This document shows positions 5,063-11,376 of a stretch of DNA of 64,000 bases, piece after piece. The DNA is from Olivibacter domesticus (lineage in GTDB: Bacteria; Bacteroidota; Bacteroidia; Sphingobacteriales; Sphingobacteriaceae), in contig NZ_FOAF01000001.1 in NCBI RefSeq assembly GCF_900109575.1, positions 1 to 64,000 on the forward strand, written 5' to 3'. The translations under genes and the position numbers were made by a program. Position 1 is the first letter of the stretch. Every line of letters starts with the position of its first letter. Below the pieces are notes generated by a model. That model ran no database searches. It had not been told where the DNA came from and worked only from the letters and a program-made list of their open reading frames with translations.

Positions 5063-6163
5063 TCAACTGCCGCTAACGCTTAAATTTCGAAGAAAATGGT
5101 CAACAATAACAAGTGCAGCCATTGCTTCCACTATTGCTACAGCTCTCGGTACGACACAGGGGTCATGCCTTCCTTTTCCTACTATTTGAGTTTCTTCGCC
5201 TGAAGTGTCTACGGTGTTTTGCGCTTTCATAATAGTAGCAACAGGCTTAAATGCAACACGGAAATTTATGTCCATCCCGTTCGATATACCACCTTGAATG
5301 CCGCCCGAAAAATTAGTCAGCGTTTTTATTGCTTTTATGTTCCGATCAGGATTTACAAAAATATCGTTGTGTTCAGATCCTCTCATACTTGCTCCCGAAA
5401 AACCAGAACCATACTCAAAACCATGAACTGCATTTATACTCAACATCGCCTTTCCCAAATCAGCATGTAGTCTGTCAAACACGGGCTCCCCTAAGCCGGC
5501 GGGTACGCCTTTCACTACCGTGCTGATGATACCTCCTACTGTATCGCCATCTTTTCTAACAGCGTCAATAAAAGTAATCATCTGGTTAGCCGTTGCAGGG
5601 TCTGCACATCTCACAATATTCTGTTCCCTTATGGTGACTAATTCTTTTATAGAGAGATCTCCTAAATTTGGTGCTTCTATTGTACCGACGGATGAAACAT
5701 GCGCGAAAATTTCAATACCGTGTTTGCTTAAGTAAGCTTTTGCTATTGCGCCAGCAGCAACTCGCGTTGCTGTTTCACGAGCGGAAGATCGACCACCACC
5801 TCTATAATCTCTGATGCCATACTTTGTCTGATACGTATAGTCGGCGTGCGACGGGCGGTATTTATCTTGAATATGTGAATAATCTTTGGAGCGTTGGTCT
5901 TCATTAGGAATCAACATAGCGAGGGGTGTACCCGTAGTTTTTCCTTCAAAAACTCCAGAAAGTATTTTAACCGTATCGCTTTCCTTTCGTTGAGTGGTTA
6001 TTTTAGACTGACCAGGCTTACGTTTATCCAACTCAGATTGTATATATTCAAGATCAATTTCGATATTGGGCGGACAACCGTCGATTATTACGCCAATGGC
6101 TTCGCCATGCGATTCACCGAAGGTAGTTATACGAAATACTTGTCCAAAAGAATTACCTGCCAT
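5063..6163 (-). CDS. aroC: Chorismate synthase
   Basis: A 366-residue cytosolic enzyme that converts 5-enolpyruvylshikimate 3-phosphate to chorismate with reduced FMN, the last common step of aromatic biosynthesis. Seen directly: the N-terminal FGESHG motif, RPSHADYTY, the [12 protein letters not shown] signature, and the basic RGSEHND segment. The length fits the family. It is the last gene of the leftward pheA operon, 65 bases downstream of aroA and followed by a terminator. It should be co-controlled by the aromatic attenuator in front of pheA unless there is an internal promoter, which I do not see. Confidence 0.96.
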
Positions 6164-6228: not shown

Positions 6229-7485
6229 TTATTGATTAGATATAGTAAAACCTATTTGCTCCAAATGTGTCCAAAACGCCGGATACGACTTGCCTACAAC
6301 CTCAGGATCTTCTATAACAAGTTCATTGAAATGAATAGCTAAGGGCGCAAAAGCCATCGCCATTCGATGATCTTCGTACGTTTTTATTCGTATACTATCA
6401 GGAGTCGTTTTGTTATCAGTGTTTAAATGATAACTTTCATTCTCTTCCATTAAAGTAACGTTAAATTTAGCTAATTCATTCTGTAAGGCCCTAATACGGT
6501 CTGTTTCTTTAATCTTTAATGTCTCTAATCCAGTAAAAGTAGCATTGTATCCTAAAACAGCGCAACATGCTATGACGGTTTGTGCTAAATCTGGACATTC
6601 TTTAAAGTTAAAAAGCGTTTGTTGTTTACCTTGGTTATTAGATTTCTCAATCTTTACGCCATTGTTTTCAAACGTGGAAACCACGCCGAAATTGGCCAAA
6701 ATGTCTACGATTGCACTATCTCCTTGCAAGCTATTCGTTTTTAAGCCAGGTAAAAATAAAGAACTTCCAATAGGAGATAAGGCAATAATAGCGTACCAAT
6801 AAGAAGCAGCGCTCCAGTCGGGCTCAACATGCAATTCCGTTTTTTTAACCTCTTGGTGCGAAATACTGATGCTATTTCCATCCCATGTATGCTGAATACC
6901 TGCCTCTGCAAGCATTTGAAGCGTCATGGTGACATAAGGCTTCGATGTTAAGTCGCCCGTAATATTTAAGGTTAAACCAAGTGGTAAAAAAGGTGCTATA
7001 AGAAGAAGTGCAGATAGGTATTGGCTACTAACATCTCCTCTGATATCTAATTGATCATGTGTTTGTTGAGCGCCCCCGTCTATGTTAAGTGGAGGGTAAC
7101 CATCGTTTTCTGTGTATTTTATCGAAGCACCAATGCTTCTTAAAGCATTTACCAAAATTCCTATCGGGCGTTGTTTCATACGTTCAGAGCCCGTAAGTAG
7201 AAAATTTCCTGGAACAAATGATAAATAAGCTGTTAAAAACCTCATGGCGGTGCCGGCAGGACCGATATCAACTGTTAAATTAGCCTTGCTTTCTTGAATC
7301 GATTTCAGGACATCACACAAAGTAACAGTATCATCCGCATTCGATAAATTTTTTATTTGGATAATGCCTTTGCTAAGTGCGCTTAAAATAAGCGCACGAT
7401 TACTTTCGCTCTTAGAACCAGTCAATTCAACGGTGTCGTTTATTTTGCCACCTTGGTATGATAATTTTAAAGTCCTTGTATTCAT
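6229..7485 (-). CDS. aroA: 3-phosphoshikimate 1-carboxyvinyltransferase (EPSP synthase)
   Basis: A 418-residue enzyme joining shikimate 3-phosphate and phosphoenolpyruvate to give EPSP. Both family signatures are visible: GPAGTAMRFL near residue 77 and KIKETDRIRAL in the C-terminal half, plus the substrate-binding GSKSESNRALI near residue 23. The ATG at 7485 overlaps the stop codon of the upstream DAHP synthase gene by one base (TAATG), so translation is probably coupled. Third gene of the aromatic operon. Confidence 0.96.
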   Translation of the reverse strand: MNTRTLKLSYQGGKINDTVELTGSKSESNRALILSALSKGIIQIKNLSNADDTVTLCDVLKSIQESKANLTVDIGPAGTAMRFLTAYLSFVPGNFLLTGSERMKQRPIGILVNALRSIGASIKYTENDGYPPLNIDGGAQQTHDQLDIRGDVSSQYLSALLLIAPFLPLGLTLNITGDLTSKPYVTMTLQMLAEAGIQHTWDGNSISISHQEVKKTELHVEPDWSAASYWYAIIALSPIGSSLFLPGLKTNSLQGDSAIVDILANFGVVSTFENNGVKIEKSNNQGKQQTLFNFKECPDLAQTVIACCAVLGYNATFTGLETLKIKETDRIRALQNELAKFNVTLMEENESYHLNTDNKTTPDSIRIKTYEDHRMAMAFAPLAIHFNELVIEDPEVVGKSYPAFWTHLEQIGFTISNQ

Positions 7486-8591
7486 TAGGCCTCCATAGCA
7501 GGTTTGGCGTTCATGATCTGATTTTGTTTACGAATTGATTCACCGTGAATTAATTCAAGTAATTTTACAGTAAAATCTTCTTCAAGGTTTAGCGCCTTGG
7601 CAAACTTGCTTCGTTTCTCAATTATTTCTTCCCATCTACTAACTTGCAAAATAGTTACTTTGTTATCTCGCTTGTATTCTCCAATTTTTTCGACAATTTT
7701 CATGCGGTCGGCCACTTTTTTGATAATTTGATCATCAAGCGCATCAATTTCTTTACGTAATACTGCTAATTTATCTTCAAAGACAGGGTCGTTAGATTCT
7801 GCTTTTCTTAACGAAAGATTATTGATAATATCGGTTAACGCCGCAGGTGTAACCTGTTGTTTTGCATCAGTCCAAGCTACCGACGGATCAATGTGTGACT
7901 CAATTATGAAACCCTGCATGTCTAAATCTACCGCTTTTTGAGCTACGTAAGGAATTAACTCGCGCGTACCGCAGATATGACTGGGATCGTTGATAATTGG
8001 AAGCTCAGGGGCTACTGTTTTTAGCTGAATAGCTAAATCCCACATCGGTTCATTACGGAATGCCGTTTTTTCATAAGATGAGAAGCCTCGATGTATAGCG
8101 CCTAATTTTTTAATACCCGCACGATTTATACGCTCTAGGGCACCTATCCATAATGACAGATCTGGGTTTACCGGATTTTTAACAAACACAGGCACATCCA
8201 CTCCTTTAAGAGCATCAGCAATTTCTTGTACCGTAAATGGATTAGCTGTGGAACGGGCGCCTACCCAAAGAACATCAACACCTGCAGCCAAGGCTTCTTC
8301 TACGTGTTTCGCTGTCGCCACTTCTGTGGCTGTAGGTAAGCCTGTTTCCTCTTTGGCACGTTTTAACCATTCTAAACCAATGCTTCCGATGCCTTCAAAT
8401 TCGCCGGGACGCGTACGGGGCTTCCATATACCTGCTCTCAAGATAGAAACCTTTCCTGTAGCAGCCAATAAATGGGCTGTTGCCACTAACTGTTCCTCGG
8501 TTTCGGCGCTGCATGGGCCGGCAATTACAAATGGTTCTTTGCCGGTAGCTAACCATGAGCTTAATGGCACGATGTCTAAATTTAGTTTCAT
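7485..8591 (-). CDS. Bifunctional DAHP synthase / chorismate mutase
   Basis: A 368-residue fusion. Residues 1-265 are a class I beta DAHP synthase, which condenses phosphoenolpyruvate and erythrose 4-phosphate and so opens the shikimate pathway; marks are VIAGPCSAE, the RAGIWKPRT segment, FVKNPVNPD and NDPSHICGTRE. Residues about 273-355 are an AroQ-type helical chorismate mutase (LRKEIDALDDQII, then KIGEYK). The mutase domain in such fusions can also act as a sensor giving feedback inhibition, which is family knowledge and not visible here. The gene starts 41 bases after pheA and ends inside the aroA start codon. Confidence 0.93.
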   Translation of the reverse strand: MKLNLDIVPLSSWLATGKEPFVIAGPCSAETEEQLVATAHLLAATGKVSILRAGIWKPRTRPGEFEGIGSIGLEWLKRAKEETGLPTATEVATAKHVEEALAAGVDVLWVGARSTANPFTVQEIADALKGVDVPVFVKNPVNPDLSLWIGALERINRAGIKKLGAIHRGFSSYEKTAFRNEPMWDLAIQLKTVAPELPIINDPSHICGTRELIPYVAQKAVDLDMQGFIIESHIDPSVAWTDAKQQVTPAALTDIINNLSLRKAESNDPVFEDKLAVLRKEIDALDDQIIKKVADRMKIVEKIGEYKRDNKVTILQVSRWEEIIEKRSKFAKALNLEEDFTVKLLELIHGESIRKQNQIMNAKPAMEA

Positions 8592-8632
8592 TGTATTATT
8601 ATTAATTTTTCTATTTAGTTGCTATTTTGAGT

Positions 8633-9460
8633 TTATATCTTGTCGTTTTTAATGTATTCTCCAAGAATATTGAAATTTATAGTATGTTTTAGTGTTTTTC
8701 TGATAGCCGCGTCGTAATTATTTTGCTTTTTCCATTCAATGTCGACATAAAAATCGTACTCGTTTCTTTTTCCCACCACAGGCATAGATTGAATTTTACT
8801 CATGTTGATCTGTTCCTCGGAAAAAAATGTAAGTACGCGGGCTAATGAGCCAATACTATTGTCGGTTTGAAACAAGAGAGTTGCTTTATTAGCTTTAGGA
8901 TTCTCCGTTTTCTCTTTAGATAAGATCAAAAAACGAGTATAATTTTTTTTATTTGTTTCTATCCTTCTTTCTATAATATCTAAACCGTAAAGCTTTGCTG
9001 CTAGTTGATTGGCAACGGCAGCTGTATCAGTTAGTTTGTTGTCAGCTATTTTCTTTGCACATGATGCGGTGTCCATTCCTTCTGTGACTTTAAAAAGCGG
9101 ATGCTCTTCTAGGTAATCTGCACACTGTCTAAGGGCTATGGGATGCGATTCTACACTTCTGATCTGGTCGAGTTTTATACCCGGTAGGGCAAGGAGATGC
9201 AGTTGGATACTTAAATATACTTCTCCAACAATCGGGAAATGATAGTCATGTAATAATGTGTAATTCGGTAATAAACTCCCCGCTATTGAATTTTCTATTG
9301 CCATAACCACATAATCTGCCTCATTTTTTTTCAAAGCCTCACATGTGTGTTTAAAAGTCTCACATTCTACTGTTTCGATTTCTTGACCGAAATATTTGAA
9401 GGCAGCCTCTTCATGAAAAGAGGCACGTGTTCCTTGGATCGCTACTTTTATTTTGCTCAT
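8633..9460 (-). CDS. pheA: Prephenate dehydratase with ACT domain
   Basis: A 275-residue enzyme that turns prephenate into phenylpyruvate. Residues 1-180 are the catalytic domain (IQGTRASFHEEAA at the start, AIENSIAGS, ESHPIAL, and the catalytic TRF in KKNYTRFLIL); residues about 190-270 are an ACT domain. The usual phenylalanine-binding ESRP motif of the ACT domain reads QSMP here. I chose the ATG at 9460; an in-frame TTG at 9472 would fall in the T-run of the attenuator and is unlikely. First gene of the aromatic operon; it directly follows the leader peptide and terminator that control it. Confidence 0.95.
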   Translation of the reverse strand: MSKIKVAIQGTRASFHEEAAFKYFGQEIETVECETFKHTCEALKKNEADYVVMAIENSIAGSLLPNYTLLHDYHFPIVGEVYLSIQLHLLALPGIKLDQIRSVESHPIALRQCADYLEEHPLFKVTEGMDTASCAKKIADNKLTDTAAVANQLAAKLYGLDIIERRIETNKKNYTRFLILSKEKTENPKANKATLLFQTDNSIGSLARVLTFFSEEQINMSKIQSMPVVGKRNEYDFYVDIEWKKQNNYDAAIRKTLKHTINFNILGEYIKNDKI

Positions 9461-9470
9461 TTTATTGTTC

Positions 9471-9504
9471 AAAAAAAAAGTCCCGGTTGCTCACCGGGAC
9501 TTTT
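9471..9504 (-). terminator. Attenuator: leader terminator before pheA
   Basis: On the minus strand a GC-rich stem (AGTCCCGGT, 9501-9493, with ACCGGGACT, 9487-9479) has a 5-base loop and runs into nine Ts ending at 9471, only 10 bases before the pheA ATG. It lies between the promoter and the first structural gene, so it must end transcription early. The end of the leader ORF (9537-9532, CCGGGA) can instead pair with TCCCGG (9499-9494) of the terminator's first arm, with flanking G-U pairs, giving the antiterminator. Confidence 0.92.
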
Positions 9505-9527
9505 CTATACATTCTTATATATGCATG

Positions 9528-9593
9528 TTAATCCCGGCCCTTACTGCTAAAGTAAAAGTAACCAAAGAACCAATATGCTGCTGTGTATTTCAT
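9528..9593 (-). CDS. Aromatic-rich leader peptide of the pheA operon
   Basis: A 21-codon ORF (ATG at 9593, TAA at 9528) beginning MKYTAAYWFFGYFYF. Nine of 21 residues are aromatic (four Phe, four Tyr, one Trp), and residues 7-15 are aromatic except for one Gly. Its last codons (GGC CGG GAT TAA) form the antiterminator strand. A ribosome stalled at the aromatic codons would leave that strand free, while a ribosome reaching the stop would cover it, so the terminator forms when charged aromatic tRNAs are plentiful. This is the classical pheL/trpL layout. The peptide itself probably has no other function. Confidence 0.9.
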   Translation of the reverse strand: MKYTAAYWFFGYFYFSSKGRD

Positions 9594-9611
9594 TATTTCT
9601 TTTTGATATGG

Positions 9612-9642
9612 CAAATATATGCAAGAATTATTATGAAACAAG
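9612..9642 (-). promoter_or_regulatory. Promoter of the pheA leader/operon
   Basis: On the minus strand: -33 CTTG (9642-9639), a 19-base spacer, and -7 TATATTTG (9619-9612). This matches the Bacteroidota housekeeping promoter (TTTG, about 19, TAnnTTTG) except for one base of the -33. Transcription should begin near 9605, about 12 bases before the leader ATG. Confidence 0.75.
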
Positions 9643-9645
9643 AAA

Positions 9646-10059
9646 AAAAATAAAAAAAATGTAAAGAAAATTCTTGGCACTATTTAGTATAGAGGGTAAT
9701 TATTCTTGGGTAATGAAAGTGTGTTTTTACAATATGTTTATCGTTAAACAGATGTGATTGACTTTTTTTTGTTGTCGTATTGCTGATTTTTTCGGTTAAT
9801 TATCTTAAAAAATAAGTTATTGAGTGAATATTGTGTGTTTTAAAAGATTTTGTTTTTGTTATTTCTATATTTTTCACGTTTTTATTTTATTATTTTCTTT
9901 AATGATGTATTTATTTTGTATGTTTTTTAAATAAATAGCGTAAATTTTATTATTTTTTTTATTTAAAAGTTGTTAATATGAAATATATGTACTTTATTTG
10001 TATTATTATTATTAAAAAATCAATTTAAAACACTTTTTTAACGCCTAAATTCAAATTAA
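9646..10059. other. AT-rich divergent region before the ammonium transporter
   Basis: About 410 bases, very AT-rich, no ORF. It must hold the promoter of the rightward ammonium transporter gene; the best match I find is weak (TTG at 9970-9972, 17 bases, TACTTTAT at 9990-9997). Confidence 0.4.
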
Positions 10060-11376
10060 ATGGAAAAAATTTGCGACATTCTTACTTTTTTGCCAACTGC
10101 TTTGCCTTCTATTGTGGTGTTGCAAGATGCTAGTGAAGCAGTTACTTCAGGAGCAGAAGCTCTTCTGACTGCTAATAACATTTGGATGATGCTTTCGGCG
10201 GCATTAGTCTTTATTATGCATCTGGGATTTGCCAGTGTTGAAGCGGGATTTACACAAGCTAAAAATACCGTTAATATCCTGTTTAAAAACACGCTTACAC
10301 CGGTAATAGGCCTTGTTACTTACGGTCTAATAGGGTTTTCCCTTATGTATCCGGGAGATTTTGGGGGAGTCTTAGGCTTTAGTAAAGAGTCTTGGGATGT
10401 TATTTGGTTAGCTCCTGCAAGTGCGGATGTGAGTGCTGGTTATGCGGATGGTGGTTATACTTTTTGGACAGATTTTTTATTTCAAGGAATGTTTGCTGCT
10501 ACCTGCGCAACGATCGTGTCGGGTGCTGTGGCTGAAAGAACAAAGTTAGGAGCTTACCTGACTTTCACGCTGATCTTTGTAAGCGTTGTTTATCCAATCA
10601 TAGGAAGTTGGAAGTGGGGTGGCGGATTCTTGGATAAATTAGGTTTCTACGATTTTGCTGGTTCTACGTTGGTGCATTCAGTTGGAGGATGGGGAGCACT
10701 GATTGGAATTTGGTTAGTGGGCCCAAGAATAGGTAAATATGAAAATGGTAAAGTGAAAGATTTTCCGGGATCTTCCGTGCCTTTAGCTACAATAGGTGTC
10801 TTCTTGCTTTGGCTCGGTTGGTTTGGCTTTAACGGAGGGTCTGTTCTTTCAGCAAATCCAGGGGCGGTATCATTGGTGTTGGTTACTACTACCCTAGGAG
10901 CATGCGGTGGCGCTATTGGTGGACATTTAGGTGGGAAAATATTTATGAAGAGAATGGACTTTGGTATGGTGCTCAATGGAATTTTAGCGGGCTTGGTTGG
11001 GATTACTGCTGGGGCCGATGTTATTACACCATTGGAAGCGCTCATAATTGGTCTTGTTGCGGGTGTTCTCGTAGTGGTGTCTGTATTGACCTTAGATAAA
11101 CTAAAATTGGATGATCCAGTCGGTGCGGTATCCGTTCATTTGGTTTGCGGTATATGGGGAACACTGGCAACGGGTATTTTTGGTGAAGGAAAATCATTTA
11201 TGTCACAGCTTTACGGTGTGTTGGCATGTGGGGCCGCTGCTGCGATAGGTGCCTTTATTATTTTTTATGTACTAAAATTGACAATGGGGTTAAGGGTGTC
11301 TAAAGAGCATGAGGTGGAGGGTTTAGATAGTCATGAGCACGGTATACGTGGTTACACGATCCTGGTAGAAGATTAA
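10060..11376 (+). CDS. amt: Ammonium transporter (Amt family), porin-linked
   Basis: A 438-residue inner-membrane channel for ammonium/ammonia with about eleven membrane helices. The two conserved pore histidines are present, in STLVHSVGGWG and VSVHLVCGIWG, and the LWLGWFGFNGGS segment is typical. The N terminus keeps an extra hydrophobic stretch before the first core helix. It differs clearly from the second Amt in this window (for example VEAGFTQAKN in place of YGGMVHRKN). It is followed 180 bases on by an outer-membrane porin gene on the same strand, a pairing that suggests joint nitrogen uptake across both membranes. No PII (GlnB/GlnK) gene is adjacent. Confidence 0.93.
   Translation: MEKICDILTFLPTALPSIVVLQDASEAVTSGAEALLTANNIWMMLSAALVFIMHLGFASVEAGFTQAKNTVNILFKNTLTPVIGLVTYGLIGFSLMYPGDFGGVLGFSKESWDVIWLAPASADVSAGYADGGYTFWTDFLFQGMFAATCATIVSGAVAERTKLGAYLTFTLIFVSVVYPIIGSWKWGGGFLDKLGFYDFAGSTLVHSVGGWGALIGIWLVGPRIGKYENGKVKDFPGSSVPLATIGVFLLWLGWFGFNGGSVLSANPGAVSLVLVTTTLGACGGAIGGHLGGKIFMKRMDFGMVLNGILAGLVGITAGADVITPLEALIIGLVAGVLVVVSVLTLDKLKLDDPVGAVSVHLVCGIWGTLATGIFGEGKSFMSQLYGVLACGAAAAIGAFIIFYVLKLTMGLRVSKEHEVEGLDSHEHGIRGYTILVED

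Follow-up and report, generated by a model that had tools for sequence, protein, structure and literature searches.

Comparative evidence for a conserved leader-peptide attenuator, probably responsive to Phe and Tyr, upstream of the pheA operon in Sphingobacteriaceae

Control by leader-peptide attenuation is textbook knowledge and is most familiar from enteric bacteria, where the pheL/pheA and trpL systems combine a leader peptide containing codons for the pathway product with three competing helices and a terminator located just before the first gene. The region upstream of pheA in Olivibacter domesticus resembles these systems in having a run of codons for pathway products, three competing helices and a terminator in front of the first gene, but differs from pheL and trpL in that Phe and Tyr codons are mixed, the promoter is of the Bacteroidota type and the operon includes the common pathway. 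The principle is the textbook one, and we regard the element as a real, conserved attenuator of known type in an under-described phylum.

Prior art for a pheA attenuator in Bacteroidota is partial and consists of a Flavobacterium transcriptome paper and an Rfam family. According to the main text of the former (PMC9723704), amino acid operons of flavobacteria show clues of control by attenuation through leader peptides, such elements being without Rfam hits, and pheA is preceded by a structured 5' element in Flavobacterium psychrophilum and other Flavobacteriaceae. Gene and phylum are the same as here and it is probably the same element, but that main text gives no peptide, alternative helices or mechanism for pheA. 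The Rfam family Bacteroid-trp (RF01692; listed in a table of PMC2864571) is a tryptophan peptide leader RNA from the same phylum, belonging to trp and not to pheA. Leader peptides outside enterics are also represented by hisS leaders in Firmicutes (PMC2965389) and by small ORFs in Bacteroides thetaiotaomicron 5' UTRs that are reminiscent of attenuation leaders (PMC7366714), neither main text naming pheA, and leader genes near start codons were counted in Bacteroidetes among others in PMC4833913. In the literature searched, neither the pheA peptide and its helices nor their occurrence across Sphingobacteriaceae is described; a 2010 comparative study by Lopatovskaya and colleagues may cover the phylum. 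The first-pass annotation of this DNA knew of no description of the leader in its group, but in view of RF01692 and the pheA 5' element presented in PMC9723704 the leader is not entirely new to the phylum.

The window, i.e. the whole stretch of 64,000 nucleotides analysed, carries on its minus strand a promoter, the leader ORF, a terminator hairpin (9504-9476), pheA, aroF/CM, aroA and aroC in this order (Table 1). Re-reading of the DNA showed that the promoter, the 21-codon ORF, its YWFFGYFYF stretch, the terminator and the nine Ts had been located and described correctly in the first-pass annotation. Eight of the nine leader residues 7-15 are aromatic, and the terminator stem extends into the T tract. 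A generic terminator scan of 8500-10100 called no terminator and hence missed that of the leader, in our opinion because the stem absorbs the T tract. The best NCBIfam matches agree with the pheA-aroF/CM-aroA-aroC operon read from the translations, aroA and aroC being above the curated cut-offs and the products of pheA and aroF/CM below theirs. pheA and aroF/CM are separated by 41 nt, aroF/CM and aroA overlap by 1 nt, and 65 nt lie between aroA and aroC. In all 25 loci compared (L179-L201, L239, L240) pheA is followed by aroF/CM, with aroA next in 24, the single exception being L197, where the contig ends first.

Table 1. Coordinates of the pheA leader and operon in the window, with predicted helix roles in brackets
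Feature	Position	Strand	Details
Promoter, Bacteroidota-type	9612..9641	-	TTG 9641-9639, 19 nt spacer, -7 box TATATTTG 9619-9612
Leader ORF MKYTAAYWFFGYFYFSSKGRD*	9528..9593	-	ATG 9593-9591, TAA 9530-9528, 21 codons
Regulatory codons 7-15, YWFFGYFYF	9549..9575	-	
Helix 1:2 (protector)	9538..9558	-	9558-9551 with 9545-9538; arm 1 inside aromatic codons
Helix 2:3 (antiterminator)	9493..9538	-	9538-9530 with 9501-9493
Helix 3:4, intrinsic terminator	9471..9504	-	9504-9494 with 9486-9476; T tract 9479-9471
pheA, prephenate dehydratase	8633..9460	-	ATG at 9460; best NCBIfam match
aroF/CM, DAHP synthase fused to chorismate mutase	7485..8591	-	best NCBIfam match
aroA, EPSP synthase	6229..7485	-	best NCBIfam match
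aroC, chorismate synthase	5063..6163	-	best NCBIfam match

The -7 box fits TAnnTTTG, which together with an upstream TTG we take to be the Bacteroidota promoter consensus. Of 102 family genomes, 90 have TAnnTTTG within the 80 nt preceding the leader ATG, as compared to 125 of 2040 mononucleotide shuffles, and in 58 of those 90 genomes the box is located 16-18 nt from the ATG. A sigma-70 promoter scan, whose model does not cover Bacteroidota promoters, gave 11 hits versus 8.0 expected.

The pheA search matched 5/5 genomes of the genus and 107 of the 121 family genomes sampled (own genome included), and all family counts refer to these 107, the 14 genomes without a pheA match being left out. A leader with an aromatic run (at least 6 of 9 residues aromatic) precedes pheA in every one of them, its ORF ending 61-158 nt from the pheA match, and the number of aromatic residues per nine is 6 in 3 genomes, 7 in 45 and 8 in 59. 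Between leader and pheA a terminator was called in 102 genomes, and in the other five (G088, G107, G110, G030, G046) a hairpin can be recognized by eye, its T tract being shorter or broken. The aromatic run and the competing hairpins, whose absence from related genomes the first-pass annotation had named in advance as grounds for abandoning its reading, are thus conserved. When the criteria were tightened in an automatic test (ORF starting with ATG, six or more of nine residues aromatic, location in the last 250 nt upstream), the leader was found in 105, the terminator in 102 and both in 100 of the 107 genomes, as opposed to 8, 3 and 0 of 2140 family shuffles, which rules out a chance origin of leader plus terminator. 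Likewise, 500 dinucleotide shuffles of the own upstream region yielded a leader alone in 9 cases, a terminator alone in 1 and both in none.

The helices were analysed in an alignment of 47 sequences comprising up to three per genus, and compensatory changes are present within the family for helices 1:2 and 3:4 and between families for helix 2:3. In helix 1:2 96.0% of 325 cells are paired, compared with 23-53% when the arms are slid, and 11 cells show a change on both sides, with 0/500 shuffles reaching the observed values by paired cells and by covariation score. The third base of codon 14 (Tyr) pairs with the second base of codon 17 as C-G in 71, U-A in 24 and U-G in 1 of 98 distinct leaders, the remaining 2 having a mismatch; the U-A form is found in 6 genera, two of which have C-G otherwise (U-A in 1/5 and 2/9 members). 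The folding of the helix 1:2 region differs only modestly from that of shuffles (mean z -1.2; z below -2 in 18/98), and its ungapped helices are barely above those of shuffled leaders (11.2 vs 10.0).

For helix 2:3 the first-pass annotation had proposed pairing of 9537-9532 with 9499-9494, which is indeed present and extends to 9 bp (Table 1). In register 91.9% of 422 cells are paired, but only 19.7-56.6% when slid. Both-side changes within the family are not above those of shuffles (106/500 by cells, 92/500 by pairs), as the arm hardly varies there. When arms 2 and 3 were swapped among 52 representatives of distinct arms, own partners beat exchanged ones (0/2000 permutations), and the same result was obtained for the 18 representatives from outside the family (0/2000). 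The best helix between arms 2 and 3 has a mean of 21.1, whereas shuffled arm-2 regions give 11.9, and it is reached by 5 or fewer of 100 shuffles in 103/125 genomes and by more than 5 in 22/125. Helix 3:4 is paired in 94.2% of 517 cells, with both-side changes in 5/11 pairs (0/500 shuffles). Arm 3 is common to antiterminator and terminator, making the two structures mutually exclusive. Computed folding gave a z of -4.7 for the full leader and energies of -17.5 kcal/mol for the antiterminator and -24.4 kcal/mol for the terminator form.

A ribosome reaches about 10 nt beyond the codon in its A site. The distance between the last aromatic codon and arm 2 is 10 nt here, 7-11 nt in 107/125 genomes and 6-14 nt in 120/125, which corresponds to about one ribosome's reach if this footprint is applied. 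The pheA leader hence unites a run of end-product codons whose translation is predicted, an intrinsic terminator, an antiterminator that excludes it, a protector helix and one-ribosome spacing, the features of the attenuator class. We consider it very probable from these sequence comparisons that it is a ribosome-mediated transcription attenuator sensing a shortage of charged tRNA-Phe and tRNA-Tyr. The ribosome-stalling logic suggested in the first-pass annotation gains support from the conserved leader, the spacing and the compensatory changes in three helices.

Building on the observed anatomy, its conservation, the helix covariation and the spacing, we propose a model in which transcription start, stalling, read-through and direction of the response are predicted. 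RNA polymerase would start near 9606 and a ribosome would translate the 21-codon leader. With Phe and Tyr plentiful the ribosome would reach the stop codon and either cover arm 2 or let helix 1:2 form, so that arm 3 would be free to pair with arm 4, leading to termination at the T tract before pheA. With Phe or Tyr in short supply the ribosome would stall at codons 9-15, covering arm 1 but not arm 2, so that arm 2 would take arm 3, forming the antiterminator and allowing transcription of the operon. Assuming the usual footprint, arm 2 would just remain free when the ribosome is held at F15, arm 1 would be covered partly or wholly when it is held at F9-Y14, and a ribosome held at W8 would stop short of arm 1.

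The codons of the aromatic run show a pattern of their own. Where arm 1 pairs, third bases are nearly fixed (TTT 62 and TTC 1 at position -2; TTT 69 and TTC 1 at position 0), whereas further upstream they are free (25 each of TTT and TTC at position -5), and TAC makes up 55% of the Tyr codons in leaders (224/410) versus 27% in the genes of the window (162/603). Near-fixed third bases at paired sites and the excess of TAC suggest that RNA pairing, and not a peptide motif, determines the codon pattern at least in part.

As to the amino acids sensed, the first-pass annotation had suggested that the attenuator may respond to all three aromatics, an extension we consider unlikely. It would account for the TGG at codon 8 here, for the occurrence of W in 46 of 102 family leaders and at position -7 in 11 genera, and for an operon that makes the common aromatic precursor. 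However, the 820 aromatic residues of the 102 family leaders for which a terminator was called comprise 410 Y, 362 F and 48 W, so that Trp contributes 5.9% of the aromatics as compared to 12.8% in the proteins of the 33 window ORFs, and 56 of these leaders have no Trp at all. As its share in leaders is below that in proteins, a Phe/Tyr sensor is favoured, which suits an operon opening the common pathway and the Phe branch. Moreover, with W8 in the A site the edge of the ribosome, given the usual footprint, would end short of arm 1, so that helix 1:2 could still form; W8 is thus upstream of the reach needed for blocking this helix. Finally, a trpE-like operon carries its own leader with WWW in 5/5 genus genomes.

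We think it very unlikely that, as in TnaC, ribosome arrest is brought about by a nascent peptide that itself senses free Phe or Tyr, instead of starved tRNA being sensed. The peptide ends are similar across much of the family (e.g. GYFYF..SKSRD), but base pairing between arms 1 and 2 accounts for this conservation, F and Y replace each other at numerous positions when genera are compared, although the register shifts as well, and outside the family the peptides have, by eye, little in common beyond the aromatic run. Next to no weight is given to a plain terminator accompanied by an unrelated small ORF or to another RNA sensor such as a T-box, a riboswitch or a protein-bound RNA. A binding protein or a constitutive terminator is conceivable, but leader and terminator did not occur together in any of the 2140 shuffles, and leader, spacing and helices are conserved together. 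In addition, gathering scores were not attained by any Rfam family, either in the window or in 12 selected loci, and the pheA leader scores below the cut-offs for Phe_leader RF01859 (20.9 of 55 bits), trpL-type RF00513 (26.6 of 41 bits) and Bacteroid-trp RF01692 (20.2 of 49 bits, E 5.8). No T-box family was over threshold in the window, and the 48 weak matches obtained on 9440-9660 (E up to 10) include none.

The attenuator, probably responding to Phe and Tyr, is an ordered, testable sensor that offers a reason for the codon pattern kept in the aromatic run. Comparative evidence places leader-peptide attenuation in all sampled genomes with pheA from one Bacteroidota family, as well as in several further families, i.e. 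in a phylum with a different promoter code where attenuation is little described. By implication, small ORFs located in front of amino acid operons in Bacteroidota merit checking as leaders.

The candidate attenuator design recurs in other Bacteroidota families, at times with two copies in series. In a phylum-wide sample of 148 genomes, 128 had a pheA match, and 70 of the 122 non-family matches were fetched, the best-scoring first and then spread over families, an order that gives no unbiased rate of leader occurrence. Among the first 30 non-family genomes a leader with a called terminator is present in 23 and a leader with a hairpin recognized by eye in 3 (G140, G144, G187). Leader and terminator are absent in the other 4 (G195, G228, G211, G237), where an open frame on the same strand, 166 codons long or more, ends at pheA, suggesting that pheA is probably inside an operon. 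In the next 40, more distant genomes leader plus terminator was found in 0, and 16 have a frame of the same kind ending at pheA (at least 100 codons). A separately collected set of 80 pheA loci, which overlaps partly with the other sampled genomes and was not added to the counts, contains leader plus terminator in 43, including Olivibacter, Albibacterium, Parapedobacter, Pedobacter, Desertivirga, Mucilaginibacter and Cyclobacteriaceae MAGs; the 37 loci lacking them are from Prolixibacteraceae-type genera or MAGs, L217 having only 79 nt upstream.

In L243, L245, L248, L251, L255 and L135 pheA is preceded by two successive aromatic leaders, each of which has a terminator of its own, as exemplified by L243 with MKMNFEYNYFYFN followed by MNTGLFAYFYFFFFWVHAGPGSL. 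By eye, L134 is probably also of this tandem type.

Similar leaders are found before other amino acid operons. It is an evenly balanced possibility that much of the Bacteroidota shares one attenuator layout on amino acid operons, with a GC-rich arm 2 in the last leader codons and only the control codons differing (Phe/Tyr for pheA, Thr/Ile for thrA-type genes, His for hisG, Trp for trpE and branched-chain for ilvD). At pheA the Phe/Tyr codons would double as arm 1, so that base pairing would partly set the choice between F and Y, and two aromatic attenuators in series would act as a two-step gate in some lineages.

In the genus, the WWW leader of the trpE-like gene (L264-L268), which is below the TIGR00564 cut-off, is accompanied by a terminator in 5/5 genomes, and none of these loci reaches the Rfam Bacteroid-trp cut-off. 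A Thr/Ile-rich leader precedes the thrA-type aspartokinase gene (815-818 aa frame; L283-L287) in 5/5 genomes, with a terminator called in 3/5. A His-rich leader, e.g. ..VFAHHIHFHHRPCGDM, precedes hisG in 5/5 genomes (L259-L263), where no intrinsic terminator was called in any of the five; control of hisG in the genus is perhaps Rho- or translation-based. This leader, located in the own genome at G000:C2, about 147700-147830, has a long hairpin, and the block after its stop codon is identical in 5/5 genus genomes. A search of 296 genomes for this block with up to 2 mismatches gave 15 matches versus 13 for the reversed control pattern, which is chance level outside the genus, and three further matches inspected were not his leaders. 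With tyrA as second target, no ORF with at least 5/9 aromatic residues and no called terminator was found in the 600 nt upstream of the matched domain (0/5 genus genomes). For ilvD of the genus no clear leader was seen, the terminators about 420-450 nt upstream in 4/7 loci standing after an ORF that by eye resembles the end of another gene, and for pabB-like genes a terminator was called in 0/4 loci tried.

Finally, we searched 146 phylum genomes with a covariance model built from the pheA element (E up to 0.01), resulting in 32 places in 27 genomes, 17 of them directly before pheA by position. In the window its match spans 9593-9471, in line with the leader start. As the model recovers 11 of the 23 non-family leaders called by script and misses 12, it is far from complete. 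Ten of the 15 places not at pheA were inspected; five represent leaders in front of other amino acid operons, the other five being plain gene ends by their look, or ambiguous. According to the best NCBIfam matches the downstream genes are a thrA-type aspartokinase (L327, which L328 resembles by sequence), hisG (L330), trpE (L333) and ilvD (L336), with only the first 400 residues used as query for L327, L333 and L336 and with trpE and ilvD below the cut-offs. L327 and L328 have Thr/Ile-rich leaders with a visible terminator before the aspartokinase gene. L330, L333 and L336, which are from other families, have leaders with His, Trp/Phe and branched-chain residues, respectively, each followed by a terminator.
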